Source: a virus
DNA length: 51,820 nucleotides
IMG/VR virus record: IMGVR_UViG_3300025418_001486
Coordinates: 1-51,820 of that record
Reading direction: 5' to 3' (one strand)
The notes under the pieces were generated by a model that saw only the letters and a program-made list of their open reading frames with translations, searched no databases and had not been told where the DNA came from. Position 1 is the first letter of the stretch, and each line of letters opens with the position of its first letter. Positions 20,346 through 50,716 of this stretch are shown piece by piece. The translations under genes and the position numbers were made by a program.

Positions 20346-20715
20346 TTGGTAATTTTAAATTAAATTGCTCTATATAGAGACTTACCTCTCTCTCTGAGAT
20401 TTCAAGGTTGTTTGCAATCTTTTGTAAGGTCGCGGTACTTTTGTTACTAGCATCTTTCTTAGCTTTCTTAATATAGCTTATACGTTTAAACTTACAAGCA
20501 GGTAAAATAGTCTTTAACGTTACGTACCAGTCTTTATTAGACTCTAAATTCTTCCAATACCTGTTGGTTGTATCGTTAACTATTTGTGCTACTGGAGCAG
20601 AATGCATAGAACACCAACGCTGGATAAGGAACGGTTGAAATTCCTTATCCTCGTTGATATTGCTAATATCAGATTCCTTACCTTTATAAAGAATCTTATT
20701 GATATAATCAAACAT
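20323..20715 (-). CDS. 62: Sliding-clamp loader small subunit (gp62 type)
   Basis: Pairs with gp44 to load the gp45 clamp. The 130-residue protein starts MFDYINKILYKGK, continues with EFQPFLIQRWCSM and NRYWKN, then LKTILPACKFKRISYIKKAKK and a C-terminal helix-turn segment. This matches the short gp62 form of aquatic T4-like phages (FxPFxxxRxLSx, then RxxFxxWxKK). T4 gp62 is longer (187). The 3' end overlaps the GroES-like gene by 23 bases; the stop of the upstream gene overlaps its start codon by one base. Confidence 0.75.
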   Translation of the reverse strand: MFDYINKILYKGKESDISNINEDKEFQPFLIQRWCSMHSAPVAQIVNDTTNRYWKNLESNKDWYVTLKTILPACKFKRISYIKKAKKDASNKSTATLQKIANNLEISEREVSLYIEQFNLKLPNEEKSTT

Positions 20716-21296
20716 TAAACAATTACTTTAGCAGTAGCAACAAAAATGTTATCTACCATTTGATAAAACTGTTGATGTACTTGTAATTGGAACTTTTCTG
20801 CATCAGCAGGTGAAAGATTAGTACTAAATGCAAAAGCAGGAGCTTTTTTACCAGCACTAATATTAATACCTGTATGTCCAATAGCTACATTATCTTTAGA
20901 GTATGTAATACTAACAGAAGCTTTACCTTTTTGTTGTACTATACCACCTTGATTATGTTCAGCGTGTACAATTAAGTCATCACCTTTCATTTCAATAGGT
21001 TTCTTAATATAAGTGTGTAGAGTATTAGCAATCGCTGTATTAAACAAGCGCTGAAAACATACTGCACCGAAAGGATCTAGATTAGGTATCTCCCAGCAGA
21101 AGTTAATCATAGAATCACTATAGATGTAGTCTTTTTCTAGAGAATCTTCTAAATCAATAAGGTTTAATGTAACTTCTACAGGAGCTACGTAGCTAACAAT
21201 ATTACCCACAGCCAGAGTCTTATCTCTGAAATACTTATAAGCAAAACGCTTGTGAATAAAATCGCCGTTATAGATAGTTTGGTCTTTGATAATCAT
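20715..21296 (-). CDS. DUF366-like protein
   Basis: The 193-residue protein has the order I know from DUF366: YNGDFIHKRFAYKYF at the N-terminus, VSYVAPVEV, LIDLEDS, IYSDSMINFCWEIPN, then FQRLFNTAIANTL. DUF366 proteins read M-V-D-L-E-D, S-x-x-M-L-H-F and Q-R-L-L at these points. The second half has DLIVHAEHNQGG and KASVSITYSKDN. Function is not established. Because this phage carries a 7-deazaguanine pathway, and an enzyme in that pathway would be useful, it is worth asking whether it belongs there, but nothing in the sequence proves it. It is one base from gene 62. Confidence 0.6.
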   Translation of the reverse strand: MIIKDQTIYNGDFIHKRFAYKYFRDKTLAVGNIVSYVAPVEVTLNLIDLEDSLEKDYIYSDSMINFCWEIPNLDPFGAVCFQRLFNTAIANTLHTYIKKPIEMKGDDLIVHAEHNQGGIVQQKGKASVSITYSKDNVAIGHTGINISAGKKAPAFAFSTNLSPADAEKFQLQVHQQFYQMVDNIFVATAKVIV

Positions 21297-21317
21297 AATA
21301 GTATTATAAAATGTATT

Positions 21318-22007
21318 TTAATATTTTCCAGTCCTTGCCTTATTTAAAAACCAGTCTTGTCCGATATTAAATTCATTAGTAAAAGATCTCAAGCCCGGTG
21401 AAGTATGTACGACATTAATATTAGTAGTACCGAGTTTTAATTTAGCTTTATTACATTGCAAGCTAAAATCAATATCATAAAAATGAAACTTAGCTGGACA
21501 TGTCTCATCGAAACTAACACCAGCTTCATATATTTTTTTAGGGTTAAATGCTAAAAATAGCCCGTCCAACATAAGCACTCTGCCGTTTTTTCCAAAATGA
21601 GTCTTAAAAACACTATTTCTGTTTATATCTTGAGTATGGTAAACATCCCCTCTATGTGTTTCTTTAGGGCACATAATATGCCAAAGTGCAGGCGTCGTAA
21701 GCTTTGCTTCTGAACCACCTGCTAAGCCTATAACATCATATTTTGTTAAAGCTTGATGCAGTTTTTCTATCCAATCATCGTCAGTGATTAGTATATCATC
21801 ATGTGCTAATACAAGTATACAATCTTCATCTTTATAGGTGTTGATAAAAGAGTTGTATACTTTAGCAATAGCGGTTTTATTATTAAATGCACCGCTTACC
21901 GTCGTGACTTTATCTAACTCTTCGCTGTTAGCGATAACAAACTTACTTCTTTTCTTAAGATCCTCAAAAGAAGAGGCTGTAGAACAGAAACTTAAATAAA
22001 CATTCAT
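21318..22007 (-). CDS. Glycosyltransferase, GT-A type
   Basis: The 229-residue protein has a GT-A-like layout: N-terminal strand VYLSFCSTAS, NNKTAIAKVYNSFI, the acidic strand ILVLAHDDILI, a VIGLAGGSEA segment, LDGLFLAFNPKKIYEAG and a late FHFYDIDFSLQCNKA with D-x-D and acceptor-site acidic residues. The HDD triplet at about residue 69 is the likely metal/sugar-nucleotide site. It is like the short family-2 enzymes whose conserved end reads H-x-Y-D-x-D. It overlaps the next gene by one base. Confidence 0.75.
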   Translation of the reverse strand: MNVYLSFCSTASSFEDLKKRSKFVIANSEELDKVTTVSGAFNNKTAIAKVYNSFINTYKDEDCILVLAHDDILITDDDWIEKLHQALTKYDVIGLAGGSEAKLTTPALWHIMCPKETHRGDVYHTQDINRNSVFKTHFGKNGRVLMLDGLFLAFNPKKIYEAGVSFDETCPAKFHFYDIDFSLQCNKAKLKLGTTNINVVHTSPGLRSFTNEFNIGQDWFLNKARTGKY

Positions 22008-22267
22008 TAGTCTTTAATAACTGTTTGTCTCGGTATATTAGGTATCTTGTTTACAAGCTCTTCTACAGTAAAATCATCACTGATACCTGTTTCATATATA
22101 AAGATATTATACAGTTTCATGTTTTTATCGTTAATTCTTTCTGCTAATTCAAGCATACGTTTACGGTGCACAGGTGTGTGATCGGAACATATATCACAAC
22201 TTGCAGTGAACAATAACGATTCTACTAAGAGTTGTTTTTCTTCTGTATTTAACTGTAAGCCTTTCAT
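22007..22267 (-). CDS. Small conserved-looking protein, unknown
   Basis: An 86-residue protein. The N-terminal half (NTEEKQLLVESLLFTASCD followed by a second Cys and HRKRMLELAERI) looks helical, with a C-x-x-C pair at about 24-27. The second half is acidic and proline-containing. I have seen similar short proteins in T4-like aquatic phages but know no function. Confidence 0.55.
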   Translation of the reverse strand: MKGLQLNTEEKQLLVESLLFTASCDICSDHTPVHRKRMLELAERINDKNMKLYNIFIYETGISDDFTVEELVNKIPNIPRQTVIKD

Positions 22268-22309
22268 ATAGTGCTTACAGTATAATAGTTTATAGAAATA
22301 AATCTACTA

Positions 22310-22687: not shown

Positions 22688-23344
22688 TTAGAATACAAAG
22701 TATGGAGACTTATGCTTGAATCTTCCGGCAGGTACTATACATTTGCAATCTTGTATTTCATATACAATTCCCTCATTTAAAGACTCACTATCTTGGAATT
22801 CAGTAGATGAAAAAGATCCAGAAGCTGGATTTGCAAACAAAGTACTCGCACTTCTAGCCAAATAAGTTTTATTAGTCTTACTATTAAAAGCCCATATAGC
22901 AAATGTACCTTTGAGTACTTCCATAGCTTCTGATACTTGTTTTTTAACTTCTAATACACGAGGTATAATACAGCTATCAGTTCTACCGGTAAAATCTTCG
23001 TCAGGAAAATACTCTCTGCATAAGCTCTCAAAATTACTAATAATACCGTTATGAGCAACTATCCAGTCACCATAAGTGAATGGGTGATTGTTAATTGCTT
23101 CAAATGTCTTCGTTTCAACAGTAGGGCCACGGGAATGATATAAAAAGTAATGGTTATGAGTATCTATACCCGGCGGGTTAAAACAATCTACAGGTTTATT
23201 AAAGATACCTTCAGTCTTTTGAACTCGGTACTGACTGTTAGAGTCTAATACTAACGCACCTGAGCTATAATAACCTCTTGCAAGATTATCTTTGTATAGA
23301 CTAAAAGCTGTATCTTTATCTTTACTACCTGCTATACCGCACAT
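22688..23344 (-). CDS. Class II glutamine amidotransferase, paired with QueC
   Basis: An N-terminal-nucleophile amidotransferase that releases ammonia from glutamine. Cys2 follows the initiator (MCGIAGS); HSRGPT (like H-T-R-W-A-T), NNHPFTYGDWIVAHNGIISN (like N-A-H-P-F and H-N-G-I) and RTDSC complete the family pattern. At 218 residues it is the glutaminase domain alone, so it needs a partner synthase. It lies one base downstream of queC in the same operon. In some archaea and phages, glutaminase and QueC domains are fused (GAT-QueC) to make archaeosine; here the two are adjacent genes. It may instead simply feed ammonia to QueC. Confidence 0.85.
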   Translation of the reverse strand: MCGIAGSKDKDTAFSLYKDNLARGYYSSGALVLDSNSQYRVQKTEGIFNKPVDCFNPPGIDTHNHYFLYHSRGPTVETKTFEAINNHPFTYGDWIVAHNGIISNFESLCREYFPDEDFTGRTDSCIIPRVLEVKKQVSEAMEVLKGTFAIWAFNSKTNKTYLARSASTLFANPASGSFSSTEFQDSESLNEGIVYEIQDCKCIVPAGRFKHKSPYFVF

Positions 23345-23345: not shown

Positions 23346-24068
23346 TTATGTTAAATAGGTTAAAGGTTTGCAATCGTACTGTTCCCATGGAATATTACGT
23401 GAATATTTAATAGGGTCAATAGCTTTATTATCAATAAAACCTTTAATACGTGCAGCACACGATACACATTCACCACAAGCAGGGTCAGTACCTTCATAAC
23501 AGGTATGTGTTTGTCTAAAATCTACTTTTAAGTCAATACCAGTCTTAATTACCTCTTCTTTAGAATAACGCATAAACGGTGCATTAACTTTAATAGTATT
23601 CTTACGATTAAGACTATAAATGTCATTAACTTTATTTAGAAACATTGAAGTGCAGTCCCAGTAACCGCTGAAATCGTCGGTTTCAACAGCACCATAAAAT
23701 AAGTCTTGTGCACCGATAGATTCAGCCCAGCCAGCTGCAGAAGTAAGTAGAAGTAAGTTTCTAAACGGTACGTAGCTTAAAGGCTGAGCATTACCAATAT
23801 CATCTTTAGCTTTAGGTATCTTTAAGTCTTTATTAGTTAATGCAGACATTGTAGAGATATCTCTAAAGAAATCCATATCAATGACTTTATGCTCTTTAAC
23901 ATTGCAAGCTTTAGCTTGAAACTTAGCACAATCGATTTCTCGAGCAATCCGTTGACCGTAATTAAAAGTTACAGCATATACCTCATCATAACTAAGAGTC
24001 TTAGTTACATAATGTAATAATACTGTACTATCCATACCGCCTGATAATATAACTAGTGCTTTACTCAT
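23346..24068 (-). CDS. queC: 7-cyano-7-deazaguanine (preQ0) synthase QueC
   Basis: Converts 7-carboxy-7-deazaguanine (made by QueE) to preQ0 with ATP and ammonia. The PP-loop SGGMDSTVLL is at residues 9-18, FNYGQR is near 38, and the C-terminal zinc site reads CYEGTDPACGECVSCAAR (four cysteines). Length 240 is normal. First gene of a two-gene unit with the glutaminase. Together with queD, queE, queF and dpdA in this window it supplies a DNA-base modification pathway. Confidence 0.95.
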   Translation of the reverse strand: MSKALVILSGGMDSTVLLHYVTKTLSYDEVYAVTFNYGQRIAREIDCAKFQAKACNVKEHKVIDMDFFRDISTMSALTNKDLKIPKAKDDIGNAQPLSYVPFRNLLLLTSAAGWAESIGAQDLFYGAVETDDFSGYWDCTSMFLNKVNDIYSLNRKNTIKVNAPFMRYSKEEVIKTGIDLKVDFRQTHTCYEGTDPACGECVSCAARIKGFIDNKAIDPIKYSRNIPWEQYDCKPLTYLT

Positions 24069-24935: not shown

Positions 24936-25596
24936 TTACTTTAAACGTCTCCGGGAACTCTTCCTCGAGACGTTTTTTTATGTCTAGAGCTATAAGTTTG
25001 TGTTCTTTTTGAGTACCTTCTTCACAGCGTAACTCAAGATAGTGTATCCAACTACGCAAAGTACCGGTCATATAAATAGTAGTCTGAGTATTAAGAGGTA
25101 ATATCATTCGAGCGCTTTCTTTCGCTATACCTGCTTTAATAAGTGCTTGATAAGCTTCGTAGCTTTGCTTTTGAGCGGTCGATACTTGTAATTGTAACGG
25201 TGCATCTAGTATAACAGGTTTATCTCCTACTTGTCTATTAGTTTTACCTTGCTCTCTCCATTCAATAGGTTCAAGTTCAGCTATTTCTGCATAACGCTGA
25301 CTGAATTCCTGAAACGTAAACGAACGATGTCTTAGTATTTGAGCTGCTATAGCACGAGATGTAATGATTTGAAATGTACAGGAAACCTGTTCAAAAATAC
25401 TCCAGTGGTGGTTTTTTACGCAATAACGCAAAAGCCGTGGACCTGTTTCAACGTTATTTTGATTACTTGGATTACTTACTCTGGCACAGTACACAATAAA
25501 TTCCTCCGCGGTTAAGTACGGTTGGTTTAAAGTGCCCTCTGGTGTGACTATTCTTTTAATTAATGGCTGAGTTACTGCAATAAGTCTTGTCTGCAT
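24922..25596 (-). CDS. thyX: Flavin-dependent thymidylate synthase ThyX
   Basis: Makes dTMP from dUMP using FAD and methylenetetrahydrofolate. The signature RHRSFTFQEFSQRY (about 89-102) matches the ThyX motif R-H-R-x(7)-S-x-R; ARMILPLNTQTTIYMTGTLR and WIHYLELRCEEGTQKE are the expected C-terminal substrate segments. 224 residues is the usual size. Its first 41 bases are overlapped by the end of the upstream GIY-YIG gene, and its last 14 by the convergent repeat-protein gene. Confidence 0.95.
   Translation of the reverse strand: MQTRLIAVTQPLIKRIVTPEGTLNQPYLTAEEFIVYCARVSNPSNQNNVETGPRLLRYCVKNHHWSIFEQVSCTFQIITSRAIAAQILRHRSFTFQEFSQRYAEIAELEPIEWREQGKTNRQVGDKPVILDAPLQLQVSTAQKQSYEAYQALIKAGIAKESARMILPLNTQTTIYMTGTLRSWIHYLELRCEEGTQKEHKLIALDIKKRLEEEFPETFKVINES
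24943..24979 (+). terminator. Terminator embedded in the 3' end of convergent thyX
   Basis: A 9-bp stem AAACGTCTC / GAGACGTTT with a 15-base loop, followed by TTTT and an A. It starts 8 bases after the stop of the plus-strand repeat protein gene and lies wholly within thyX coding sequence on the other strand. Confidence 0.75.
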
Positions 25597-26230
25597 TATA
25601 TTTTAATAAAGTTTTTATTTTGTTTGTTGTACAGTTATATTTTTTGCTTAAAAAATTAATAGATGCCCCGGTATTATAGTCTTGTAAAACGTCTTTTTCA
25701 ATATGTTCAGGAAACTTTGTACGTAAATAAGTTTTATACCCTATAAGAATACGCGTACTGTCTTTATGAGACTTACCATACATAGAATTATTTTTACCGC
25801 TATGATTCACTCCTGGTTTAAATCTACCTTGAGAATTTAAAAATTCTTTACTTACTTTACCTTCCTCATAACGTTTTTTTGAAGATGCGGAGATTTTTTT
25901 AATAATTTGTTCTCTATTAGGGTGCATACTTATAGTATCTCCACCCCCGGCAGACTGTGCAACATTTAATAGTAATGCGGTTTTTCTGTATTTATTTAAA
26001 TAATATTGCTCTCTAATTAAAATATCCTGCACAGTACAAACTTCTAATTTTAGAAACAGTAAGTCTTTTTTACCGTGTTTATTATATATTCGCTGTAAAT
26101 GAATGTTGTGATGTTTATTGTTTTGTAGCTTATTATAGTGCCATTTCCAACGAGATTTTATTGTTTTGCTACTACCTATATAAAATCTGCCAGTTTTTTT
26201 GCTTGTTATTGCGTATATATAACACGACAT
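25556..26230 (-). CDS. GIY-YIG homing endonuclease with NUMOD3 segment, overlapping thyX
   Basis: Mobile endonuclease: Y-I-Y at residues 4-6 (MSCYIYAITS), YIG at 17-19 (FYIGSS), catalytic-fold R and E downstream, then DNA-binding modules including GKNNSMYGKSH (NUMOD3 signature). 224 residues. The gene ends 41 bases inside thyX on the same strand, so it has landed precisely at the front of thyX without destroying it. Same promoter-like motif and spacing as the other endonuclease gene at 10705, but the proteins differ clearly in sequence. Confidence 0.9.
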   Translation of the reverse strand: MSCYIYAITSKKTGRFYIGSSKTIKSRWKWHYNKLQNNKHHNIHLQRIYNKHGKKDLLFLKLEVCTVQDILIREQYYLNKYRKTALLLNVAQSAGGGDTISMHPNREQIIKKISASSKKRYEEGKVSKEFLNSQGRFKPGVNHSGKNNSMYGKSHKDSTRILIGYKTYLRTKFPEHIEKDVLQDYNTGASINFLSKKYNCTTNKIKTLLKYNADKTYCSNSAIN

Positions 26231-28386: not shown

Positions 28387-29100
28387 CTATAATTTAAACT
28401 GTTTTTTATCCGTTAATCCTAATTGATCAGCTAACATTTGTTGTTCTGCTATGTCTTTAATTAAAGAATCTTCTTCTCCAAAAAATTCACAACTATTATT
28501 AATGTACATATTCATTATAGCGATACGCTCTAACGGATTTCCGTAAACAGGTATAATGGGTGGTGTGTCATCATTATCAAAGAAACGAGACCTACCAGTT
28601 TCCCAAGCTTTAAATATACCATCAAACAAGAGTGCTATCTCTCCTCGATAAATAGGGTCAATATCTCTATTCTCTTTAGTCTGAAGTAGTACGTCATTTT
28701 CTTTACATAAAGGAATATAAAATATAATTGAATAAGACTTAACTGCTTCTCTTACTTGTATTACAGTCTTGTCAATAAAAGCTTCATCAATATCTCCTAA
28801 ACCTTTTTCGAAGAGCCATAACGAATAAACTAAATTATCGATAGGGGTACGGTCAAATACCATTTTCTTTTTACCGTAGTTAGCCATTGCTTCATCAACA
28901 AGGAAGTTAAGAATCTCTTGTTGAGAGGCTTTAGTACCGTTTTTATTGATAGGTAGTTTCTTGTCTTTAATTAAATCCCGGTATGTCTTTTCAGGTTTAG
29001 TTAACTGAGGCCACTGCAGTAACATATCATTTACTAGAGTGGTTTTACCGATACATTGTGTACCGATAATACCTATTTTATTAAGCTTAGTATTACTCAT
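28387..29100 (-). CDS. NadR-like P-loop ATPase/kinase
   Basis: 237 residues with Walker A GTQCIGKTT (13-21) and a second acidic motif VFDRTPIDNLVYS (about 81-93), the layout of NadR-type AAA/kinase domains (AAA_28). Such phage proteins are candidates for nucleotide or nucleoside kinases, but the substrate cannot be read from sequence. A paralogue-like gene is present at 49231. It overlaps the downstream start region of the upstream gene by 4 bases. Confidence 0.75.
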   Translation of the reverse strand: MSNTKLNKIGIIGTQCIGKTTLVNDMLLQWPQLTKPEKTYRDLIKDKKLPINKNGTKASQQEILNFLVDEAMANYGKKKMVFDRTPIDNLVYSLWLFEKGLGDIDEAFIDKTVIQVREAVKSYSIIFYIPLCKENDVLLQTKENRDIDPIYRGEIALLFDGIFKAWETGRSRFFDNDDTPPIIPVYGNPLERIAIMNMYINNSCEFFGEEDSLIKDIAEQQMLADQLGLTDKKQFKL

Positions 29101-29582: not shown

Positions 29583-30392
29583 TTAAACTGATAACGCTTT
29601 ATCCCATAATTGTAAATGTAACCTATTAGAGAATTTAAAATTATACTTCTTGCACAATTCAGCTACTATAGGACCTACCTCTAATAATTCTTTACGACTA
29701 CCACACATAGGCATTATCCATACTTGATCTGAACGTACCCCTACCTCGGGATTATTAAGGTAGTTTTCTAGTACTTCATTTAAATCTGATTCTTGTTTAG
29801 CTACAAACTTAAAACAGGCGTCCTGTACAGCTAAATAACGTAAAACTTCTGGTTTATAACGTTTTTCAACAGGATCTCCATTACTAGATAATTTAGGAGA
29901 TGTGGTATATGTTACTTGAATACCAAGTCGGGACCACTCTTCGTCTGGCATGATAGTACCGTTGGTTTCAAAGTCAATATGTAATTTAGGTCTACCAATA
30001 TCATCAGATGTAAGGGTCTTGCTGTAGTTAACAAAGCCCCAACGATCTCTAATAAACTTAATAAAATTAAGTAATTTCTTTTGCTGCAAAAAAGGTTCAC
30101 CACCGCTTATTTTAAAAAGCGCGCCATTTTTAAGTAGCTCGTGGTGTTCTCTCTCTTCCATATATTTTGCGATCTCTGTAAAGGTCATTTTGTTCTTTAT
30201 ACTCCAACTAACGTAACTATCACAACCAAACGGGGAGTCAACAGACTTGAATCCTTGACACGTTAAATTGCAGCTTGCTAGACGTATAAATACTGTAGGG
30301 TAACCAATATAGCGACCCTCGCCTTCTAGCGTATTAAAGCAAAAATCATTAGAAATATACATATATTCTTTATCTGGATCTACGGTATTCAT
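29583..30392 (-). CDS. queE: 7-carboxy-7-deazaguanine synthase QueE (radical SAM)
   Basis: Rearranges carboxytetrahydropterin (QueD product) to 7-carboxy-7-deazaguanine. Family motifs: FNTLEGEGRYIGYP, FIRLASCNLTC, SGGEPFLQ and DFETNGT. The cluster cysteines read C-x3-C-x11-C (C41, C45, C57 in this numbering), an expanded loop as in other QueE proteins rather than the usual C-x3-C-x2-C. I use the ATG at 30390-30392 (MNTVDPDKEY, 269 aa); an upstream start at 30428 adds 12 hydrophobic residues with no homology value. Seven or so bases after queD in the ORF sense, same operon. Confidence 0.92.
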   Translation of the reverse strand: MNTVDPDKEYMYISNDFCFNTLEGEGRYIGYPTVFIRLASCNLTCQGFKSVDSPFGCDSYVSWSIKNKMTFTEIAKYMEEREHHELLKNGALFKISGGEPFLQQKKLLNFIKFIRDRWGFVNYSKTLTSDDIGRPKLHIDFETNGTIMPDEEWSRLGIQVTYTTSPKLSSNGDPVEKRYKPEVLRYLAVQDACFKFVAKQESDLNEVLENYLNNPEVGVRSDQVWIMPMCGSRKELLEVGPIVAELCKKYNFKFSNRLHLQLWDKALSV

Positions 30393-30435
30393 ATACTGGT
30401 ATAATATTATAAAAAAAATACAAATCAACTGTTAA

Positions 30436-30876
30436 TTAACCTTCGTATATAGCTGAATTGTCCGGGTGTTCCCAAACTTCTACTTTAGAACACCAGCAAC
30501 GACCATTAGTTAAGCTATCTACATATTCGTTTGCAAGTCTATGGCATAATTCAGCAAATCGTTCGATACCAACGCCGTCTTCAAGTACCACTAATTCAAT
30601 CATCTTACGTTGTTCTAGTAGTTTAAACATATCTAAGTCAGGGTCTTTTGCCCAAACCACTGTTTTATGGTCAAAGTATTCTTCTAAAGTAGTTTTAAGT
30701 TGTTTGAGCGCGCCGAAATCTACAACCCAGTTATTGTTATCTAGTGTATTACAAGTAAACCAAAACTTAGCTTGTAAACGATAACCGTGAATAAAGTGAC
30801 AGTGACTTTGTGCATAAGGCTGTCTAAATGCAGCCGATCCTAACGGAATGACTTTAGTTGAAGTGAATTTACCCAT
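30436..30876 (-). CDS. queD: 6-carboxytetrahydropterin synthase QueD (phage-type)
   Basis: Converts dihydroneopterin triphosphate to carboxytetrahydropterin, entry step after GTP cyclohydrolase. The core reads GSAAFRQ (11-19) and SHCHFIHGYRLQAKFWF (24-40), then WVVDFGALKQLK, FDHKTVV and EVWEHPDNSA at the end. Compared with bacterial QueD (SAAHRL and C-x3-HGH), two zinc-ligand histidines are replaced (F17 and Y32), while C26 and H30 remain and H25/H27 are new. I know the same FRQ...SHCxxxHGY form from T4-like aquatic phages, so it is a subfamily trait. Confidence 0.88.
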   Translation of the reverse strand: MGKFTSTKVIPLGSAAFRQPYAQSHCHFIHGYRLQAKFWFTCNTLDNNNWVVDFGALKQLKTTLEEYFDHKTVVWAKDPDLDMFKLLEQRKMIELVVLEDGVGIERFAELCHRLANEYVDSLTNGRCWCSKVEVWEHPDNSAIYEG

Positions 30877-41156: not shown

Positions 41157-42001
41157 AAATACTAATTATACAAGAATATAGCAGACATGCAGAAAACGTT
41201 CTTTATAGAGAATGTTTATGTTTTCAACGCGCATTTAAAAGTATCGGTTGGGAAGCAGATGCATGGGGTTTAGGTCATAGTAATTATAATCAGATACCGG
41301 ATTTTAATAGTTATGATGTAATTTTAAATTGCGAAAATTACGGTGATCACTGGTTACCCGATCTTAATCAGTATAAGAAACCGTATAAGATACTTTATGC
41401 AGTTGATCCTCATTGTAGAGGTATACAACCATATGAACAGATTGTAAAACTACAAGGTTATAACTTTCTATTTGTTGCTGTAAGAGATTTTTCTTCCGGA
41501 GAAAATAAAGCATGGCTACCTCCTGCAGTGGATGAAGAACTATTTGTAAACAAAGGTTTAAAGAGAGATATACATATGGGGTTTGTAGGCAACTATGTAA
41601 ACAGAAAAGATCTCTTAGATTTTATGACCAATAATTTCGGTCTTAAACAATGTATACAGGTTTTTGGAGATGAAATGGTAAATCTACTCAATAGGTTCAC
41701 TATTGGTTTTAATAAAAACATAGCAAACGATACTAACTATAGAAGCTTTGAAACTATTGCTTGTGGTGCTATGTTAATGTCTGATAATAATCCTGCATAT
41801 AAAGATCTAGGATTTGTACATGGAGAAAACTGCTTTCTATACAATAATGATATAAATCATATAAAGGATTTAGTCGAGCAAGCGTTTACTCATCCTGCAC
41901 TTGTAAGTGATATAGCTAATCGAGGCTATCTTTTATCTAAAAAACATACATATAAAAAGAGAGCTGAAAGTATTGCTAAGTTCCTTTCGAGCAAGATTTA
42001 A
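41153..42001 (+). CDS. Glycosyltransferase, GT-B type (CgeB/group 1-like)
   Basis: 282 residues. LIIQEYSRHAENVLYRECLCFQRAFKSIG begins like CgeB-type proteins (listed here as separate short segments: LIIQEYS, then CFQRAFKS), followed by DVILNCENYGDHWLPDL, WLPPAVDEELF and VGFVGNYVNRKDLL. The C-terminal donor site reads NYRSFETIACGAMLMSDN and FVHGENCFLYNN. Last of the five-gene island. Confidence 0.82.
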   Translation: MKILIIQEYSRHAENVLYRECLCFQRAFKSIGWEADAWGLGHSNYNQIPDFNSYDVILNCENYGDHWLPDLNQYKKPYKILYAVDPHCRGIQPYEQIVKLQGYNFLFVAVRDFSSGENKAWLPPAVDEELFVNKGLKRDIHMGFVGNYVNRKDLLDFMTNNFGLKQCIQVFGDEMVNLLNRFTIGFNKNIANDTNYRSFETIACGAMLMSDNNPAYKDLGFVHGENCFLYNNDINHIKDLVEQAFTHPALVSDIANRGYLLSKKHTYKKRAESIAKFLSSKI

Positions 42002-42038: not shown

Positions 42039-43862
42039 ATGCAGTACGTTTTCTTTAAAAATATAAAAATTACTAATTTCCTGTCTGTAGGTAAAAGACC
42101 GGTTGTTATTGATTTTAAGCCAGGATTAAACATTATCACTGGTAAGAACTACGATAAAAGTGACCGTGCTAATGGTGTAGGTAAGTCCACTATTACTGAT
42201 GCTATACATTTTGCATTGTATGGTACTACTATCAGAGATCTTAAGAAAGAGAATATAGTAAACAATCTGTTTCCAGAGGATTTATGTGAAGTAGAACTAC
42301 AATTTGTAGTTGAAGAGAATCATAATAAAACAGAGTATAAAATTACTCGTACACTTAATCCTACTAAGTGTTTCTTATATATTAACGGTGAAGATAAAAC
42401 TCGTTCCGGTGTACCGCAAACTACAGAATACATTATAGATATAATTAATACTTCATCAGAAGTATTTCAAAATAGTGTTGTAATGACCATAAACAGTACT
42501 GTACCGTTTATGGCGCAAAAGAAAGTAGAAAAACGTAAGTTTATTGAAGGTATTCTTGGTTTAGAGGTATTCGGTAATATGTTAAATATTGCACGCTCTG
42601 AATTCAATGATACTAAGCGTTATCTTGATATCGAGATGACAAAAGCAGATGAAACTGAGCGGGCATATCAAGAAAACATTAAACAAAAAGATGTTTATGA
42701 AGAGAACAAGAAAAAGCGTAAAGATGTACTTTTAACTCGTCAACGTAACAACGAGCAGGAGCTTGCTTTATTAAACGAAAAGATTAATAAACTCGATTCT
42801 GTAGATACAGTAGCTGAAAAAAAGATACTTGATAATATGTCAGCACTTAAAACTGCTGAAGGTCTATGTGATAAAAAAATAGCTAGTATCAACAGACTTA
42901 TTACTGAAGCAGAAACACATATTAAGCTTAACAATGACCGTATTAAAAAACTTAAAAAGATTGATAGTAAATGTCCTCATTGTGGTAAAGATCTAGCTGA
43001 AGCTACTAACGTTCAATATGAAAAAGATAAATCTGAATGTCAGGCTGAAATACAAAAGTATACAGAAGTTATTAACACTCAGAAGCCTCTTTTAGTTGAA
43101 GCACAAGAACAGTTAAATAAAGTAGAGACTCATATTACAAACACTCAGAAGAAGGTAAGCGATTTTAATGTACGTAAAAAAGAAGTCGAGAACATTAACT
43201 CTCGTATTAAGCAATTAAATGAGTGGCAATCATCTCTCAAAGTAGATATTGAAGCATTAGATCATAACGATAATGCATTCATTGAGAGTATAAGGAATAT
43301 TGAAACTCGTATCGCTGATATAAAGGTAAAAATTACCGATTTACAAGATAAGATTGATGTAATTGAATCTGCTAAGTTTATTGCTTCTGAAGAAGGTGTA
43401 AAATCGTTTATTGTTAAGAAGATACTTGAAGTACTAAACATAAGATTAGCATTTTATCTCAAAAAACTCGAAAGTAATAGTATGGTTAAGTTTAATGAGT
43501 TCTTTGAAGAAACTATTACAAACGAGCGTGGAGTTGAATGTAGTTATTTTAATTTTTCTGGAGCAGAACGTAAAGCTATAGATCTTGCAATGATTTTTAC
43601 GTTTCAAGATATCCGTAGAGCACAAGCTAACGTATGGTTAAACATATCTGTATTCGATGAATTATTAGATTCGTCATTAGATGAGAAAGGTATTGAATTG
43701 GTATTGGATATAATACGTGAAAGAGTTGAAAAATACCAAGAGGCAATATATATAATATCACACCGTAAGGAAAGTATGAAATACTGTACAAGCGGTGAAA
43801 TAGTCTATCTTGAAAAGAAAAACGGTATAACAGTAAGATCAACAACTTTTAATAATGAATAA
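42039..43862 (+). CDS. 46: Recombination nuclease subunit gp46 (SbcC/Rad50 type)
   Basis: ABC-type ATPase that partners gp47. Walker A is split by a short insertion (GKNYDKSDRANGVGKST, about 35-51); long coiled coils flank the zinc hook CPHCGKDL with C312 and C315; the C-terminal signature and Walker B appear as FSGAERKAIDLAMIF and NISVFDELLDSSLD. 607 residues against 560 in T4. No ribosome-binding site; an AT-rich gap of 37 bases separates it from the transferase island. Confidence 0.95.
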   Translation: MQYVFFKNIKITNFLSVGKRPVVIDFKPGLNIITGKNYDKSDRANGVGKSTITDAIHFALYGTTIRDLKKENIVNNLFPEDLCEVELQFVVEENHNKTEYKITRTLNPTKCFLYINGEDKTRSGVPQTTEYIIDIINTSSEVFQNSVVMTINSTVPFMAQKKVEKRKFIEGILGLEVFGNMLNIARSEFNDTKRYLDIEMTKADETERAYQENIKQKDVYEENKKKRKDVLLTRQRNNEQELALLNEKINKLDSVDTVAEKKILDNMSALKTAEGLCDKKIASINRLITEAETHIKLNNDRIKKLKKIDSKCPHCGKDLAEATNVQYEKDKSECQAEIQKYTEVINTQKPLLVEAQEQLNKVETHITNTQKKVSDFNVRKKEVENINSRIKQLNEWQSSLKVDIEALDHNDNAFIESIRNIETRIADIKVKITDLQDKIDVIESAKFIASEEGVKSFIVKKILEVLNIRLAFYLKKLESNSMVKFNEFFEETITNERGVECSYFNFSGAERKAIDLAMIFTFQDIRRAQANVWLNISVFDELLDSSLDEKGIELVLDIIRERVEKYQEAIYIISHRKESMKYCTSGEIVYLEKKNGITVRSTTFNNE

Positions 43863-45030
43863 TTCCTTCGTTCTCGGAGCACCTCAACTTCCAATTGGAG
43901 CACCTGTTTTTGGGTCACCACTTCAGGCACCTGAAACTCCACCAGCACCTTCTGCATCTCCTAACCCACCAGCTAACATGGCTATTAGTTTTGCTGCTGA
44001 CCATGGTGGTTGTGGTTTTTGGCGTATACACTGGCCAGAGGCTTTAATTAACTCATCTGGTAAAGGAGTTATTACTAACTCTACAATGATGCTTTTAGAT
44101 CCGCGTTATTATGCTAACGTAAAATCTGTAAAGATACAACGACAAGTCACTGAACCTCAATTGCAGTTTGTAAAGTTTTTAAGAGATACATCTAATAAAG
44201 GTAATAAGTTTAAACTCTATTATGAGATTGACGATGTTATTTTCCCTGAAGACATCCCGTTATATAATAAATCTAGACAAGCTTTCGTTGATCCTATTAT
44301 TGCGAAAACAGCAGTTGAGATTATTAAGCATTGCGACGCTATTACATGTCCTACTAAGTTTATGGCAGACTACTACACTGAAAAAACAGGTGTACCTGCA
44401 ATAGTAGTACCTAATTATTTACCTAAGTTTTGGATAGATCGTTTTTACGATAAAAAGAAAGTAGTTGACAACTTTGATTATAATGTAAAGAGACCGCGTA
44501 TCGGTTACGTTGGTAGCCCTACACACTTAAATGTTGATAGATTACCTGGTATACAAGATGATATTGATCCGTATATACCTATTATACGTAAAACATATAA
44601 ACAGTATAAGTGGGTATTCATGGGTGGTGTTCCGTACGAACTACAAGATTTAGTACGTTCTGGAGATATTGAATACACTCCATGGAGATCATTATATGAT
44701 TATAGTTATGCATTTGATGCATTAAAGCTTAATTTAGCATTTGCACCTTTACAAAATAACAAGTTTAATTATGCAAAAGCACCTATCAAGTATCTTGAAG
44801 CTGGTGCGTTAGGTGTACCTTGCTTGTGTCAAGATGCACCACCATATAATACAGACCCAGTTGCACCTTTAAGGTTTGATACCCCGGATGAAATGATGGA
44901 TTTAGTTAAGAAGCTTTGCAATAACCGCAAACAATACTTAACTGAATCGGATCATGCACGTAAAGTAGCAACTCAATACTGGCTTGAAGATCATATTGAC
45001 GAGCACATGAAAGTTTACTTTCCTTCTTGA
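43855..45030 (+). CDS. Glycosyltransferase, GT-B type, with proline-rich N-terminus
   Basis: 391 residues. Residues 1-42 are a proline/alanine-rich linker (APETPPAPSASPNPPA). The catalytic part starts FAADHGGCGFWRIHWP, has KLYYEIDDVIF, AITCPTKFMADYY and IGYVGSPTHLNVD, and a C-terminal donor site FNYAKAPIKYLEAGALGVPCL. The same layout occurs in phage GT4-like proteins that act on virion or host sugars. It overlaps gene 46 by 8 bases. Confidence 0.82.
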   Translation: MNNSFVLGAPQLPIGAPVFGSPLQAPETPPAPSASPNPPANMAISFAADHGGCGFWRIHWPEALINSSGKGVITNSTMMLLDPRYYANVKSVKIQRQVTEPQLQFVKFLRDTSNKGNKFKLYYEIDDVIFPEDIPLYNKSRQAFVDPIIAKTAVEIIKHCDAITCPTKFMADYYTEKTGVPAIVVPNYLPKFWIDRFYDKKKVVDNFDYNVKRPRIGYVGSPTHLNVDRLPGIQDDIDPYIPIIRKTYKQYKWVFMGGVPYELQDLVRSGDIEYTPWRSLYDYSYAFDALKLNLAFAPLQNNKFNYAKAPIKYLEAGALGVPCLCQDAPPYNTDPVAPLRFDTPDEMMDLVKKLCNNRKQYLTESDHARKVATQYWLEDHIDEHMKVYFPS

Positions 45031-45061: not shown

Positions 45062-47623
45062 GTGTATCGTAACGTATATTACAATTCAAGAGAAGCATTA
45101 GCATATCTATTTACCTGGGATAAAAACGGTAAACGGGTAGTTAAAAAGGAACCTTATAGTCCCTATTTCTACATAGAGACTAATCAGGACAATGCTGATG
45201 CTTTGTCTATTTTTAAGACTAAACTAAAAAAGAAAGTCTTTCCTAATGCCTTCGAACGTAATAAGGCTGCACAGGATGGTGCTATTAAGAGACTATTTCA
45301 TAATATTCAGGTAGAACAACAGTTTCTTATTGAGAAGTTTAAAGATGAATACGAGAAACCTGAGTTTTCTGCTAACCCTTTAAAGGTTTGTTTTCTAGAT
45401 ATCGAAGTCTATTCTCCAGATGAGTTTCCTGAAGCTAAGGATGCTAAGCATCCTATCAATCTTATAACGATATATGATAACTTATCTGAAACGTTTTATA
45501 CCTGGGGTTGTAAACCTTATACCCCGTCTCGTAAGAACGTTGTATACACAGAATGTAGCGGCGAAATAGATCTACTTAATAAGTTTCTAGAATTTTGGGA
45601 AAACGATTACTACCCAGATATCTTATCTGGTTGGAACACAGACTTTTTCGACTTTCCTTATACTATTAACCGTATCAATAACTTATTAGGTGAAAACGCT
45701 GCTAAACGTTTATCACCGTTAAAAAGTCTTTGGTGCCGTAAAGGTATTTTCGTTAAAGGACAAGAGTTAGATCGTTGGTATATTCATGGTATGTCTGCAA
45801 TGGACTATCTTGAAGTATATAAAGGCTTTGCGCGTGGTTTATTAGAGTCATATGCACTAAACTTTGTAGCACAACATGAGTTAGGTGAAGGTAAACTAGC
45901 TATCAATGCTACTAACTTAGCTTCTTTATCTGAAAATGATTGGAATAACTTTGTAGACTATAATATTCAAGACGTTGACCTGTTAGTACGAATGGAAAAG
46001 AAATTGCAGTTCTTTAAGATCATTCGTATGTTAGCTTATAAAGGGTTAACTAGCTTTGAAGCTGCACTAGGTAAAGTTCAGATTGTTACCGGTTGTGTTG
46101 CTTTAGAAGCATATAAACACGGCTTAGTTATACCAACGTTTGTGTCTGGTCCTACTAGAGATGAAATTGAAGGTGGTTATGTTAGAGATCCAGAACGTGG
46201 TTTAAAGACCTCTATCGTGAGTTATGACGCTAACTCTCTATACCCTAACACTATTATTACTCTTAATATCTCACCTGAGACTAAGATAGGTAAGATCTTA
46301 CGTAAATCTGACACAGAGACAACACTATTATTAGCTAACGGTTCTGAAAAGACAGTGCCTAATGAAAAACTTGAAAAGTTGATGGATATAGAAAAGTTAG
46401 CTATATCTAAAGCTAATGTTTTGTATACTCAGAAAAAGAAAGGTGTAGTACCTTCGTTAATTGACGGTCTTTATAGTGAGCGTGTAAGAAATAAGAACCA
46501 GTACATTGATTATAAGAAACAACTAAGTAATTTAACCCCAGATACTGATGAATATAAAACGTGTAAGTTTAATATGGAACGAGCTGACACCATCCAGCAC
46601 GTCATTAAGATTCTTCTCAATTCTATTTACGGGGTTTTTGCTAATAAGTTTAGTCCTATTTGCGATAGCGATCATGCCGGTAGTATTACTCTTACTGGGC
46701 AGTCAGTGGTTAAGCAGGCAGGTGTCATCCTTGATACATATGCTAAAGAAAAATACAATGTTGACGTTTCTCTTAACATATATGGTGATACTGACAGTAC
46801 TCATGTTACTATTCAACCGATTGTTGATAAGCTTAAGATAAAGTTATTTGCTAACGGTAAAGTAACTCCAGAAGGTTTAGATTTAATTGATAAAGATATT
46901 GGTACATACTTAAATAACGAAATTAAACGTTGGTCTGCTGCAGAATTTAAGTCTACCGATCCTCGTTACTTCTTTAAACGTGAATCGATTTGTGATGTAG
47001 GTGTTTATCTACAGAAAAAACGTTACATTATTCATGTACTAAACGATGAAGGTGCAAACGTTAATAAGTTTAAATATGTCGGGGTTGAAATCGCTAGATC
47101 TACTACACCTAAGAAAGCAAAAGAACTGATTAAGAAGGTTATTGAGAACTCTTTGTTAGGTCAGGATCAAATAAAAGCAAACAGTCTTTATAAAGAGGTT
47201 TATGATGCTTTTAAACTGTTACCTGTTGATGAAATAGCTATTCGTGGTGGTCTCAGTGATTTAGAGAAATACGAAGTTAAAGCAGATGGCTTTAAAATCG
47301 GTACAGGTACTCCAAATCACGTTAAGGGTGCTTTATGGTACAATCATTTGTTGAAGCATTTGAAGCTAGAAACAAAATACGAACGGATTACTTCTGGTGG
47401 CAAAGTAAAGAAGATTTATATTGCACCAAACAAGTATAATATCGATACTCTTTGCTATCCTTACAACTTTCCACCAGAATTTAATGAGTTTCAAGTAGAC
47501 TATATTGAAATGTTTGATACAATAATTAAACCGCCTATATTAGCTGTATATGAAGCTATTGGATGGCGATTACCAGATTTAACTAACGAAGTAACAACAG
47601 ACCTATTCGACTTATTCACATGA
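45062..47623 (+). CDS. 43: DNA polymerase, family B (T4 gp43 type)
   Basis: Replicative polymerase with proofreading. Exonuclease motif I is FLDIEV (D113, E115), later GWNTDFFDFPY and YNIQDVDLLVRM are exo II and III. Polymerase motif A is YDANSLYP (D389), motif B is KILLNSIYGVFAN and motif C is YGDTDSTHV (D576, D578). 853 residues (T4: 898). Start is GTG at 45062, the only in-frame start before the conserved N-terminus. It overlaps dpdA by 4 bases, so the base-modification enzyme is translationally coupled to the polymerase. Confidence 0.96.
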   Translation: MYRNVYYNSREALAYLFTWDKNGKRVVKKEPYSPYFYIETNQDNADALSIFKTKLKKKVFPNAFERNKAAQDGAIKRLFHNIQVEQQFLIEKFKDEYEKPEFSANPLKVCFLDIEVYSPDEFPEAKDAKHPINLITIYDNLSETFYTWGCKPYTPSRKNVVYTECSGEIDLLNKFLEFWENDYYPDILSGWNTDFFDFPYTINRINNLLGENAAKRLSPLKSLWCRKGIFVKGQELDRWYIHGMSAMDYLEVYKGFARGLLESYALNFVAQHELGEGKLAINATNLASLSENDWNNFVDYNIQDVDLLVRMEKKLQFFKIIRMLAYKGLTSFEAALGKVQIVTGCVALEAYKHGLVIPTFVSGPTRDEIEGGYVRDPERGLKTSIVSYDANSLYPNTIITLNISPETKIGKILRKSDTETTLLLANGSEKTVPNEKLEKLMDIEKLAISKANVLYTQKKKGVVPSLIDGLYSERVRNKNQYIDYKKQLSNLTPDTDEYKTCKFNMERADTIQHVIKILLNSIYGVFANKFSPICDSDHAGSITLTGQSVVKQAGVILDTYAKEKYNVDVSLNIYGDTDSTHVTIQPIVDKLKIKLFANGKVTPEGLDLIDKDIGTYLNNEIKRWSAAEFKSTDPRYFFKRESICDVGVYLQKKRYIIHVLNDEGANVNKFKYVGVEIARSTTPKKAKELIKKVIENSLLGQDQIKANSLYKEVYDAFKLLPVDEIAIRGGLSDLEKYEVKADGFKIGTGTPNHVKGALWYNHLLKHLKLETKYERITSGGKVKKIYIAPNKYNIDTLCYPYNFPPEFNEFQVDYIEMFDTIIKPPILAVYEAIGWRLPDLTNEVTTDLFDLFT

Positions 47624-48426
47624 TTAAAATATCTCACGAATCTCCTTTAAGTATGCTCGAGATCTCTCGTACATACAACGATTACTGCTATGCACTCGTG
47701 CACCTCTTTGAAACTCACCCGCAATACTATAAGTTCTTTGAAGATAGTGTTAAAATGGGCCGCCATGTTTTGCTAGATAACTCTATATTTGAGTTAGGTA
47801 CCTCTTTTGACCCTAAACGCTATGCACACTGGATACAAAAACTAAATCCTACAGAATATATTATACCAGACGTATTAGAAGACTGTCAGGGTACTATAGA
47901 TTCAGCTAAGAAATGCTTATGGAAAGAATGGGACTTTGTTAGTAATTCTAAAACTATTGGTGTTGTACAAGGTAAGACTTACGGCGAGTTAGTTAAGTGT
48001 TATGTAGCTTTAGATCAAGAAATTGGTGTAGATAAGTTAGCTATATCATTTGACTATTCTTATTACCTCAAATTATTCCCGCATCCTAACAAGTGGGTAT
48101 CTTATATGATGGGTAGAGTAATGACTTTAACTCAGTTAATGAATGACGGTATTATTAATAAAGATAAACCTCACCATTTATTAGGTTGTGCACACCCTAG
48201 AGAATTTAGTTTCTATCAAGGACCTGAGTATAGCTGGATAGAAACACTAGATACTTCATCTCCTATTGTACATGGTATTAAAAGAGTAAGATATACTGAT
48301 GCAATAGGTAACTGGAAGAAAGAATCTACTAAGCTAGTAGATCTTTTAGATGTAGTACCAGATGAAATACAAGAAAGAATTATTGCAAGTAATTTAATTC
48401 AGTTTAGAAACTTTGTTAATGGATGA
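47620..48426 (+). CDS. dpdA: DNA-guanine transglycosylase DpdA (TGT-like), inserts 7-deazaguanine into phage DNA
   Basis: Swaps guanine in DNA for a 7-deazaguanine base, after replication. The TGT-like barrel motifs are: LLDNSIFELG (D53), YIIPDVLED (D84), IGVVQGKTYGEL (Q117, like the V-Q-G of TGT), KLAISFDYS, HHLLGCAHPREF (like the G-G loop) and WIETLDTSSP with D211 as the likely nucleophile. The zinc-binding cysteine cluster of tRNA enzymes is absent, and at 268 residues it is much shorter than bacterial TGT, both as in phage DpdA. It starts inside the stop of gene 43 and leads a cassette that also encodes the formyltransferase and QueF. Confidence 0.85.
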   Translation: MIKISHESPLSMLEISRTYNDYCYALVHLFETHPQYYKFFEDSVKMGRHVLLDNSIFELGTSFDPKRYAHWIQKLNPTEYIIPDVLEDCQGTIDSAKKCLWKEWDFVSNSKTIGVVQGKTYGELVKCYVALDQEIGVDKLAISFDYSYYLKLFPHPNKWVSYMMGRVMTLTQLMNDGIINKDKPHHLLGCAHPREFSFYQGPEYSWIETLDTSSPIVHGIKRVRYTDAIGNWKKESTKLVDLLDVVPDEIQERIIASNLIQFRNFVNG

Positions 48427-48653
48427 CCACTTTAGAAGCTATAACTAACTCAGTACATGCAAACTATCCTCACTTACTGGCCAATTCTGTTTATATCCGC
48501 GATTATTATTTTTGGGATTGTATTCGTAATAAAGAACTCCCGGTAAAAGAGCTTGCAGATGTTAAACCTTACATAATAAAACACGGTATTGTTGACTTTA
48601 CGCTTGTTATTTTCTTTAGTGATAATACAATAGGGTATCGACTAAACATATGA
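48423..48653 (+). CDS. Unknown 76-residue protein in the dpdA cassette
   Basis: No family recognised. Two-part sequence: SVHANYPHLLANSVYIRDYYFWDCIRN then VKELADVKPYIIKHG (given here in pieces: VYIRDYYFWDCI; VDFTLVIFFSDN). Translationally coupled by 4-base overlaps to dpdA and to the formyltransferase gene, so it may be a subunit or adaptor of the modification enzymes. Confidence 0.6.
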   Translation: MTTLEAITNSVHANYPHLLANSVYIRDYYFWDCIRNKELPVKELADVKPYIIKHGIVDFTLVIFFSDNTIGYRLNI

Positions 48654-49234
48654 AACGTACCTTAACTTGGAAAACATTTTTCTCTCAGAGCGGCTCTGAG
48701 ATATACGAAATATCTAAAAATATTGGTAGGTTTCCGGATGCAATTATAACTAATAAAAGCTTTGAAGAAATGGATAAAATTAATCCTGATCTTCTAGAAA
48801 GATGTTTTGATCGTTTTATATTTTTACCCAAGAAACCGACTGTAGAAGAATACCGTGAAGCTATTAGAAATGCTGATGTTATTACGCTTCACGGTTATCT
48901 TCGTATATTACCACCAGAGATCTGTGGTAGATTTAAGATATACAATGGGCATCCAGGTCTTATTACTAAGTTTCCTGAATTAAAAGGCAAAGATCCTCAA
49001 GCTAAAGTATGGTATAAACACTTCGAAAAACCGTACAAATTACACGGGCATGTTATTCACGAGGTAATACCAGAAGTAGATGCTGGTAAAGTCGTGTCTG
49101 AGAAAGAGTTTTATAGCGAAAGTATTTACAAAGAATTTAATAGTTTAAACGATTATATTGTAAGATTGCATAAGCTAGCAATTGAAAATTGGGTTGGCTT
49201 TATGCGAAAAAGTCTATTAAATAATAAACTATGA
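48650..49234 (+). CDS. PurN-like formyltransferase, candidate DNA preQ1 formyltransferase
   Basis: 194 residues with the formyltransferase catalytic set: N99 and H101 in YNGHPGL, D144 in PEVDAGKVV, plus HGYLRILPPEI (like A-G-F-M-R-I-L-S) and HGHVIHEV before the Asp. It presumably uses 10-formyltetrahydrofolate. The usual purine-nucleotide loop of PurN (S-G-x-G-S-N) is altered to FSQSGSEIY, so glycinamide ribonucleotide is not the certain substrate. It lies between dpdA and queF in a coupled operon, which makes it a good candidate for the enzyme predicted to formylate deoxy-preQ1 in phage DNA (named DpdN in the literature as I recall it). Confidence 0.8.
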   Translation: MKRTLTWKTFFSQSGSEIYEISKNIGRFPDAIITNKSFEEMDKINPDLLERCFDRFIFLPKKPTVEEYREAIRNADVITLHGYLRILPPEICGRFKIYNGHPGLITKFPELKGKDPQAKVWYKHFEKPYKLHGHVIHEVIPEVDAGKVVSEKEFYSESIYKEFNSLNDYIVRLHKLAIENWVGFMRKSLLNNKL

Positions 49235-49806
49235 GAACAAACTATAAAGCTGCAATTTGTGGCGCTCATTCACAAGGTAAAACTACTTTAGTAAAAGCTC
49301 TAAAGAATGAATTATTGTTAGATGATAATCATTTTTCTTTTAGAACTAACTTAACGAGAGGTTTAAAAGACTTAAATGTACCTATTAATGAAGGTGGTAC
49401 TTCTTTAACTCAATATTTGGTAATGGCTAGACATTTAGAGTATGGTTTAACTCCGGGTAACTGGATATTAGATAGAGGTGCTTTAGATGGTATTGCTTAT
49501 ACTACTTATTTTTATGAAAAAGGTCAGGTAAATAAAGACGTATATCAAGCTGCTTTAGTTGTTTACGAAGAATTACTAAAGACTTATGATAAGATTTTTT
49601 ATGTCGTACCTGAACTTGATATCAAAGATGATGGAGAGAGAAGTACAGGTAAAGAGTTTTTTGACGGAGTTGTAAAACAGTTTGATTTCTATCTTAAGCA
49701 TTTTTCAATGCCTACTGATAAACTTGTTTATGTATCAGGTACAGTAGAAGAAAGAGTTAATAAAGTAATTACAGAGATAAAGAAAGATTTCACCAATGAG
49801 CTATAA
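49231..49806 (+). CDS. NadR-like P-loop kinase/ATPase
   Basis: 191 residues. Walker A GAHSQGKTTL (10-19), then ILDRGALDGIAYTTYF, FYVVPELDI and a C-terminal VSGTVEERVNKV. This is the same AAA_28/NadR-like layout as the gene at 28387, but the two are diverged. In the operon with dpdA and queF, a role as a nucleotide kinase in modified or ordinary dNTP supply is possible; DpdA acts on polymer DNA, so a nucleotide kinase is not needed for the base exchange itself. Confidence 0.75.
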   Translation: MRTNYKAAICGAHSQGKTTLVKALKNELLLDDNHFSFRTNLTRGLKDLNVPINEGGTSLTQYLVMARHLEYGLTPGNWILDRGALDGIAYTTYFYEKGQVNKDVYQAALVVYEELLKTYDKIFYVVPELDIKDDGERSTGKEFFDGVVKQFDFYLKHFSMPTDKLVYVSGTVEERVNKVITEIKKDFTNEL

Positions 49807-50716
49807 TACTAATAATATTGACAAAGTACTTGGTCAGAGAGTTGACTCTCCTACCACTTACACACCAGAGATTTTGGTGCGTGAAGAGCGCCAACGTAAC
49901 CGTACCCATCTTGATCTTAAGAACGGTTTCTTACCTTTCGTAGGTCACGACATTTGGAACGGTTATGAATGTAGTGCATTAACAGATAACGGTTTACCTG
50001 TTACTTGTGTTGCTAAAGTAGTTTATTCTGCTGAAAATGATTTCATTGTAGAGTCTAAGTCAATGAAGCTATACTGGAATTCATTTAATATGCAGAAAAT
50101 GGGTAAGAACACTAAAGAAGTACTTAAGAACATTAAGCAAACAGCTTCTAAAGACTTATCTTTATTACTAGAAACTGATGTTAAAGTAGAGTTATTTCCT
50201 CAAACAGTAGACAAAGAAACTAATGTTCAACGCGATGCTTGGTATAATAATTACAACCAAGAATTCTGGCCTGTATTAGAAAAGACTAAAGGTGCAGAAA
50301 AGATTGAGTTTACTGTATTTAACGAAGATGCAAAACTACTACAAGTAAACGATCAAATTACTGATGTAAGTTACCGTTGTATGAGTACGTTACTACGCTC
50401 TAATTGTAAGATTACTAAGCAACCAGATTCAGGCGATATTTTCATTTATTATAAAGGACCTAAAGCTGTTACAGAAAAGTCTTTATTAGAATGGATTGTA
50501 TCATTCCGTAATGAATGTCACTTCCACGAAGAAATCTGTGAAGCTGCTTACAAACGCCTTTGGGACTTATTAGAACCAGATGAACTATTAGTAACTTGCT
50601 TTTATGCTCGTCGTGGTGGTTGGGATATTGTACCAACTCGCGCTTCAAGTAAAAAGTTACTAGATAAACGTCTTATTGACGTAAAGCACCCTTATTTTAA
50701 GTTTCCTCGTCAATAA
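49796..50716 (+). CDS. queF: NADPH-dependent 7-cyano-7-deazaguanine (preQ0) reductase QueF
   Basis: Reduces the nitrile of preQ0 to the aminomethyl group of preQ1. The motif ESKSMKLYWNSF is at 86-97 (QueF signature E-S-K-S-x-K-L-Y). The C-terminal module has LLRSNCKITKQPDSG with catalytic C204 and D211, FHEEIC (H244, E245) and FYARRGGWDI, all as in the two-domain (E. coli-like) QueF of about 280 residues. One change: the usual H-Q-P-D-W-G is K-Q-P-D-S-G. Coupled to the kinase-like gene by an 11-base overlap. It shows that preQ1, not only preQ0, is an intended product. Confidence 0.93.
   Translation: MSYNTNNIDKVLGQRVDSPTTYTPEILVREERQRNRTHLDLKNGFLPFVGHDIWNGYECSALTDNGLPVTCVAKVVYSAENDFIVESKSMKLYWNSFNMQKMGKNTKEVLKNIKQTASKDLSLLLETDVKVELFPQTVDKETNVQRDAWYNNYNQEFWPVLEKTKGAEKIEFTVFNEDAKLLQVNDQITDVSYRCMSTLLRSNCKITKQPDSGDIFIYYKGPKAVTEKSLLEWIVSFRNECHFHEEICEAAYKRLWDLLEPDELLVTCFYARRGGWDIVPTRASSKKLLDKRLIDVKHPYFKFPRQ

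Follow-up and report, generated by a model that had tools for sequence, protein, structure and literature searches.

A predicted 7-deazaguanine DNA-modification pathway with formyl-preQ1 as its putative product in a T4-like phage contig from a lake

Does the phage represented by IMG/VR record IMGVR_UViG_3300025418_001486 rebuild the guanine of its own DNA, and if so, into which base? The record is a virus contig from a lake sample, and its full 51,820 bp form the window analysed here. A first-pass annotation, made from the sequence, had named queD, queE, queC, queF and dpdA as a near-complete 7-deazaguanine pathway and proposed that guanines are partly or wholly replaced by a base derived from preQ1. 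All five genes are present as open reading frames (ORFs) at the positions claimed for them, and QueD, QueE, QueC and QueF match known families. Replacement by such a base is supported by a tRNA-guanine transglycosylase (TGT) fold for DpdA, a reductase-type QueF and a contig end that would explain the lack of GTP cyclohydrolase (FolE). The earlier reading was incomplete, having overlooked a formyltransferase, an amidotransferase next to QueC and a kinase. With these included, the genes point to a full 7-deazaguanine pathway with formyl-preQ1 (fdPreQ1) as the predicted DNA base, at a probability of about 0.68.

DpdA (47620..48426, + strand) is assigned to the CP220/immuto subfamily of TGT-fold guanine exchange enzymes. 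Its ORF had no match in Pfam or NCBIfam and matched only an unnamed PHROG family (phrog_19058, 2.6e-50). The protein shares 49% identity along its entire length with the product of a gene annotated as DpdA in Flavobacterium phage immuto (vB_FspM_immuto_2-6A, NC_055915) and 42% over 99% with gp56 of Campylobacter phage CP220, which places it with the CP220 subfamily by similarity. Because the DpdA profile found no relative among PDB sequences, folds were compared instead. An AlphaFold model built on 34 relatives (predicted local distance difference test score, pLDDT, 86.7) has eight strands in barrel order, and the top ten matches in a PDB fold comparison are all TGT (VIA Z 17.5, 232 residues, 3.1-3.2 angstrom). 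As modelled, DpdA is a TGT barrel; a predicted fold outside that family, which the first-pass annotation had named as grounds for abandoning its claim, was not obtained. Invariant positions in the alignment are D53 (LLDNS), Q117-G118 (VVQGK) and D211 (LDTSSP), whose placement suggests D102, Q203 and D280 of TGT, a correspondence that we take from established knowledge of TGT and not from superposition. The window DpdA profile did not match the DpdA proteins of phages 9g, CAjan and Dp-1. The CP220 subfamily is DpdA3, which is associated with complete replacement. More distant DpdA homologues (25-28% identity) occur in Campylobacter phage CC_R7 (L245), Bacillus phage BSTP10 (L246) and Weizmannia phage Youna2 (L248), where they are annotated as hypothetical or polynucleotide kinase and adjoin kinase and/or DNA polymerase genes. 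All across the immuto-like clade, though in none of the other clades fetched, a gene for a PRA-PH/MazG-like pyrophosphohydrolase (PF01503) closely precedes dpdA (L074:9254-9826, L079:9236-9820, L081:8797-9339, L001:19282-19806).

The substrate of such an exchange would come from a known route, in which FolE, QueD, QueE and QueC convert GTP to preQ0 and QueF turns preQ0 into preQ1 (PMC6884629). QueC, the 7-cyano-7-deazaguanine (preQ0) synthase, is encoded at 23346..24068 (-; PF06508 7e-63, TIGR00364 above cut-off). QueD, a 6-carboxytetrahydropterin synthase of the phage type, lies at 30436..30876 (-; PF01242 6e-18, phrog_2389 1.6e-35), and QueE, the radical SAM 7-carboxy-7-deazaguanine synthase, at 29583..30428 (-; phrog_2076 6e-43, QueE NCBIfam models below cut-off), its true start, judged from the alignment, probably being an ATG near 30392. 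The earlier claim of intact core catalytic motifs stands in part. Alignment to Escherichia coli QueD shows that equivalents of the catalytic Cys, Asp, His and Glu are kept, as is just one of the three zinc histidines, the other two being substituted (AAH to AAF, HGH to HGY), and the QueE cluster motif aligns as CX3CX11C, not the canonical CX3CX2C. Both departures recur among relatives: SHC...HGY is kept across the window clade and T/SHC...HGY in immuto and Chryseobacterium phage MA9V-3, and QueE relatives carry insertions of differing length at the same site before the third Cys (about 30 residues in the loci L059 and L073; CX3CX7C in immuto). Their conservation argues for function, short of proof. 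Loci with the QueE cluster-loop insertion comprise window 29583-30428, L059, L073 and L001:16576-17352.

Downstream of dpdA, and on the same strand, lie the genes that narrow the predicted product. A 76-residue protein without a Pfam or PHROG family (48423..48653, +), found at a conserved position in the window clade only, is followed by a formyltransferase (48650..49234, +; PF00551 3e-8, above cut-off), a P-loop kinase of the nucleoside/nucleotide type (49231..49806, +; PF13521) and QueF (49796..50716, +; PF14819 4.5e-27, PF14489 1.5e-18). QueF is a two-domain preQ0 nitrile reductase making preQ1: it matches the solved Vibrio cholerae QueF at 1.6e-33, and its motifs ESKSxKLY, SNCxITxQPD and FHE are of the nitrile-reductase type. 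The formyltransferase has solved relatives of the PurN type and carries NGHP and VDAG motifs; it is probably a DpdN-like preQ1 formyltransferase. Cui et al. reportedly described (2023, NAR) a formyltransferase, DpdN, and the base fdPreQ1 in DNA; a literature search on DpdN or fdPreQ1 found nothing relevant.

The order dpdA-formyltransferase-kinase-queF is kept in the window clade, in further clades with 51-62% DpdA identity and in the cultured phage immuto. Although the genes are indeed spread over 30 kb in the window, as first described, the related lineage of L059 and L073 packs the whole set into about 9 kb as QueE-FolE-DpdA-formyltransferase-kinase-QueF-QueC-GATase-QueD. The strongest evidence that the formyltransferase, the amidotransferase and the kinase belong to the pathway is this tight grouping in a distant relative. 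Two other loci, L081 (10331-11287) and L243, lack the formyltransferase; their kinase instead forms a fusion protein with a GNAT acetyltransferase domain at its C-terminal end (PF13673 28.1 bits, cut-off 23.6; the two proteins are 77% identical). An acetyltransferase standing in for the formyltransferase supports the idea that the latter decorates preQ1, and it suggests that phages of the L081/L243 type carry an acetylated base (N-acetyl-preQ1) in their DNA; we know of no report of such a base.

The gap at the head of the pathway has a probable explanation. A PF01227 search found no FolE in the window, as the first-pass annotation had noted, and of the 12 window-clade contigs that reach the site, 11 carry folE beyond the corresponding edge, some 10-11 kb downstream of dpdA (G001, G002, G003, G005, G016, G023, G024, G028, G029, G030 and G032). 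The window ends 4.2 kb past the dpdA start, that is, before the folE site, so that its own folE is expected about 7 kb beyond the right edge. Supply of FolE by the host was considered as the main explanation and is disfavoured, colinear relatives having the gene just beyond the window edge. The twelfth contig, G004 (L043, 140,720 bp), encodes dpdA, formyltransferase, kinase and queF and has no folE over about 118 kb downstream; this phage may rely on host FolE.

Downstream of queC on its own strand, and only 1 bp away from it, a class II glutamine amidotransferase is encoded (22688..23344, -; PF13522 and PF13537 above cut-off; Cys2 present). It adjoins queC on the same strand in all 89 loci that have both genes, and its hidden Markov model (HMM) picks up the Gat domain of the phage 9g Gat-QueC fusion (E 2e-5). 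Most likely the amidotransferase provides ammonia to QueC. The two might function as a split Gat-QueC, yet they are separate ORFs and are not classed as Gat-QueC. A tblastn search of the phage collection for counterparts in cultured phages (1e-5) hit only unannotated entries catalogued as phages of Listeria, Enterococcus and Staphylococcus, and these matches resemble fragments of host glmS. The stand-alone amidotransferase next to queC is a minor variant.

Taken together, FolE (probably encoded just beyond the right edge), QueD, QueE and QueC would make preQ0, with the amidotransferase feeding ammonia to QueC, and QueF would reduce preQ0 to preQ1. The DpdN-like enzyme would formylate the aminomethyl group of preQ1, before or after its insertion, and DpdA would swap guanine for the 7-deazaguanine, leaving 7-(formylamino)methyl-7-deazaguanine (fdPreQ1) in DNA, with a likely role in protection against host nucleases. 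It is the presence of the formyltransferase that points to formyl-preQ1 over bare preQ1. As to extent, in CP220 and CPt10 100% of dG is replaced by dADG (PMC8306585); CP220 has the nearest DpdA with citable chemistry, which makes extensive or complete guanine replacement plausible in the window phage by analogy. Several points weigh against this interpretation. The metal sites of QueD and QueE depart from canonical form, the formyltransferase falls far below the PurN model cut-offs and its substrate is assigned from context alone, FolE lies outside the window itself with one relative lacking it on about 118 kb, and the amidotransferase beside QueC could mean archaeosine.

The alternative that survives best, though still unlikely, concerns the level at which bases are exchanged. 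DpdA might act on a guanine nucleotide, the kinase then making a modified dGTP that the polymerase incorporates, with total replacement as the outcome. The constancy of the kinase speaks for this: in all 62 loci where the sequence continues for 2.5 kb or more after dpdA, it is found within 2 kb of that gene and shares its strand. In CP220, where replacement is 100%, a kinase 33% identical to that of the window directly follows dpdA, and CC_R7 has the order queC-dpdA-kinase-DNA polymerase; both keep the dpdA-kinase pairing, whereas the rest of the neighbourhood differs. The kinase model is closest to NadR ribosylnicotinamide kinase, deoxynucleoside kinases (dNK) and thymidylate kinases (TMPK), all of the nucleoside/nucleotide kinase type, and searching the initial 50 kb of each of 9g, CAjan and Dp-1 with the kinase HMM gave no match. 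A path through modified dGTP has been suggested for Campylobacter phages (PMC6884629), and the immuto clade has PRA-PH before dpdA. Against it, the known DpdA/TGT reaction acts on nucleic acid, and 9g DpdA together with Gat-QueC modifies DNA in E. coli; for these two reasons exchange at the nucleotide level is rated low. The kinase could, moreover, simply boost nucleotide supply. The family B DNA polymerase gene (45062..47623, +; PF00136, PF03104) overlaps dpdA by 4 bp and adjoins it on the same strand in 55 of 55 loci with both, but this adjacency is weakened as a sign of exchange on nucleotides, since 9g and CAjan, both only partly modified, likewise have polymerase and clamp genes close to dpdA. 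PRA-PH as a general dGTP-clearing partner was rejected for the window clade, which lacks it; among the clades fetched it occurs only in that of immuto. Somewhat more doubtful still is the extended version, in which exchange on nucleotides, a kinase-made triphosphate and total replacement are combined with an acyl group (formyl, or acetyl in L081/L243) set by interchangeable operon enzymes. To our knowledge, no role of this kinase in a 7-deazaguanine system has been published.

Plain preQ1 (dPreQ1) would be the final base if the formyltransferase served purine or folate metabolism. The enzyme is PurN-like, the phage has a QueF, and Dp-1 and HVTV-1 are known to carry dPreQ1 (PMC6884629); yet the formyltransferase stays within the dpdA-queF operon across divergent phages, and its replacement by an acetyltransferase domain where it is missing suggests decoration of the preQ1 amine, so that an undecorated base appears improbable. 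Less probable again, to the point of being very doubtful, is archaeosine (dG+) as the base in DNA, by itself or in a mixture, with amidotransferase and QueC working together as a split Gat-QueC. Recognition of the 9g Gat domain by the amidotransferase HMM and the invariable adjacency to queC favour it, the 9g Gat-QueC being a maker of dG+ (PMC6884629), but that would leave a reductase-type QueF and a formyltransferase without a task. Operons of the immuto and L074 types also have formyltransferase and QueF, and in the stretch of immuto scanned no amidotransferase was detected by QueC. That the genes instead serve queuosine in host tRNA, for which preQ0 and preQ1 are precursors and which has been considered for phages without DpdA (PMC6884629), deserves almost no credence, given a DpdA of the CP220/immuto subfamily, a formyltransferase with no place in the queuosine pathway and the lack of tRNA genes in the window.

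Two further genes are candidates for the pathway. A second P-loop kinase (AAA_28; 28387..29100, -; PF13521) near QueE is about 30% identical to the kinase at 49231..49806 and shares the strand of QueE in 67 of 67 loci with both; its membership of the pathway is uncertain. A DUF366 protein (20715..21296, -; PF04017 1.6e-20), for which a sequence search found no solved relative, is encoded about 2 kb after queC across the whole window clade. DUF366 directly follows queC in three bacterial genomes that share one common arrangement (L253:5301-6540, L259 and L264), and lies away from queC in 12 of 16; that all 16 have both genes tells little because QueC is common. The case for DUF366 as an accessory of the 7-deazaguanine pathway is weak, and these data give a hint of a queuosine or 7-deazaguanine role for this uncharacterized family. 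One DUF366-bearing record, L002 (MW495066, 'Microcystis phage MaAM05'), also carries glyS, fliM, secDF and murJ, and its DUF366 gene begins almost exactly as that of Vampirovibrio chlorellavorus (L265) does; the entry resembles a stretch of bacterial chromosome deposited under a phage name.

By its gene content the window belongs to a T4-like phage genome: it encodes a T4-type major capsid protein gp23, the portal gp20 and the family B DNA polymerase. The gp23 proteins of the best-matching phages in the public collection share no more than about 36% identity with that of the window, and the same collection yields larger contigs with DpdA 90-96% identical to that of the window, one of which (G002) is colinear with it. 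A UvsW-like helicase (34436-36304) is split by an intein-like splicing domain (PF14890) for which there was no homing endonuclease match. Three GIY-YIG endonuclease-like ORFs were recognized by eye (10079-10726, 25556-26230 and 33230-33721), one adjoining thyX, as were many glycosyltransferase-like genes, at 37833-42001, 43855-45030 and 7357-8409; another at 21318-22007 was confirmed as PF13712. Glycosylation of DNA or virion in addition to 7-deazaguanine is possible.

If the prediction holds, a widespread freshwater clade of T4-like phages joins those that rebuild the guanine of their DNA, with a specific base, formyl-preQ1, as a probable armour against bacterial DNA-cutting enzymes. The kinase accompanies this DpdA subfamily in all lineages seen, and the pairing makes it testable whether fully guanine-replaced phages carry out the exchange on completed DNA or already on nucleotides. 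Among characterized systems, Enterobacteria phage 9g (dG+, Gat-QueC, DpdA1) resembles the window in its preQ0 pathway, an amidotransferase joined to QueC and polymerase genes near dpdA; it differs in that its Gat-QueC is fused and that no QueF, formyltransferase or partner kinase was found (for the kinase profile, in the first 50 kb). Streptococcus phage Dp-1 likewise has preQ0 enzymes and a QueF-type protein, giving dPreQ1 (PMC6884629), but its QueF is short, its DpdA belongs to another subfamily and neither formyltransferase nor partner kinase was found (again with the kinase profile run on the first 50 kb). CP220 shares homologous DpdA and adjoining kinase, but has no QueF or formyltransferase by dpdA in the stretch scanned. 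The fdPreQ1/DpdN system, as reportedly described, matches the end product predicted for the window and the extra, putatively DpdN-like formyltransferase. Closest is immuto, with dpdA, a small ORF, formyltransferase, a gene annotated as 'thymidylate kinase' and QueF in the same order, plus FolE, QueD, QueE and QueC; it differs in a family A polymerase backbone, PRA-PH before dpdA, genes on one strand and the lack, in the stretch scanned, of a detected amidotransferase beside QueC. The type of modification, its enzymes and, through immuto, even the operon order are thus already known or sequenced, and the constant DpdA-kinase pairing and the kinase-acetyltransferase fusion are the novel leads.

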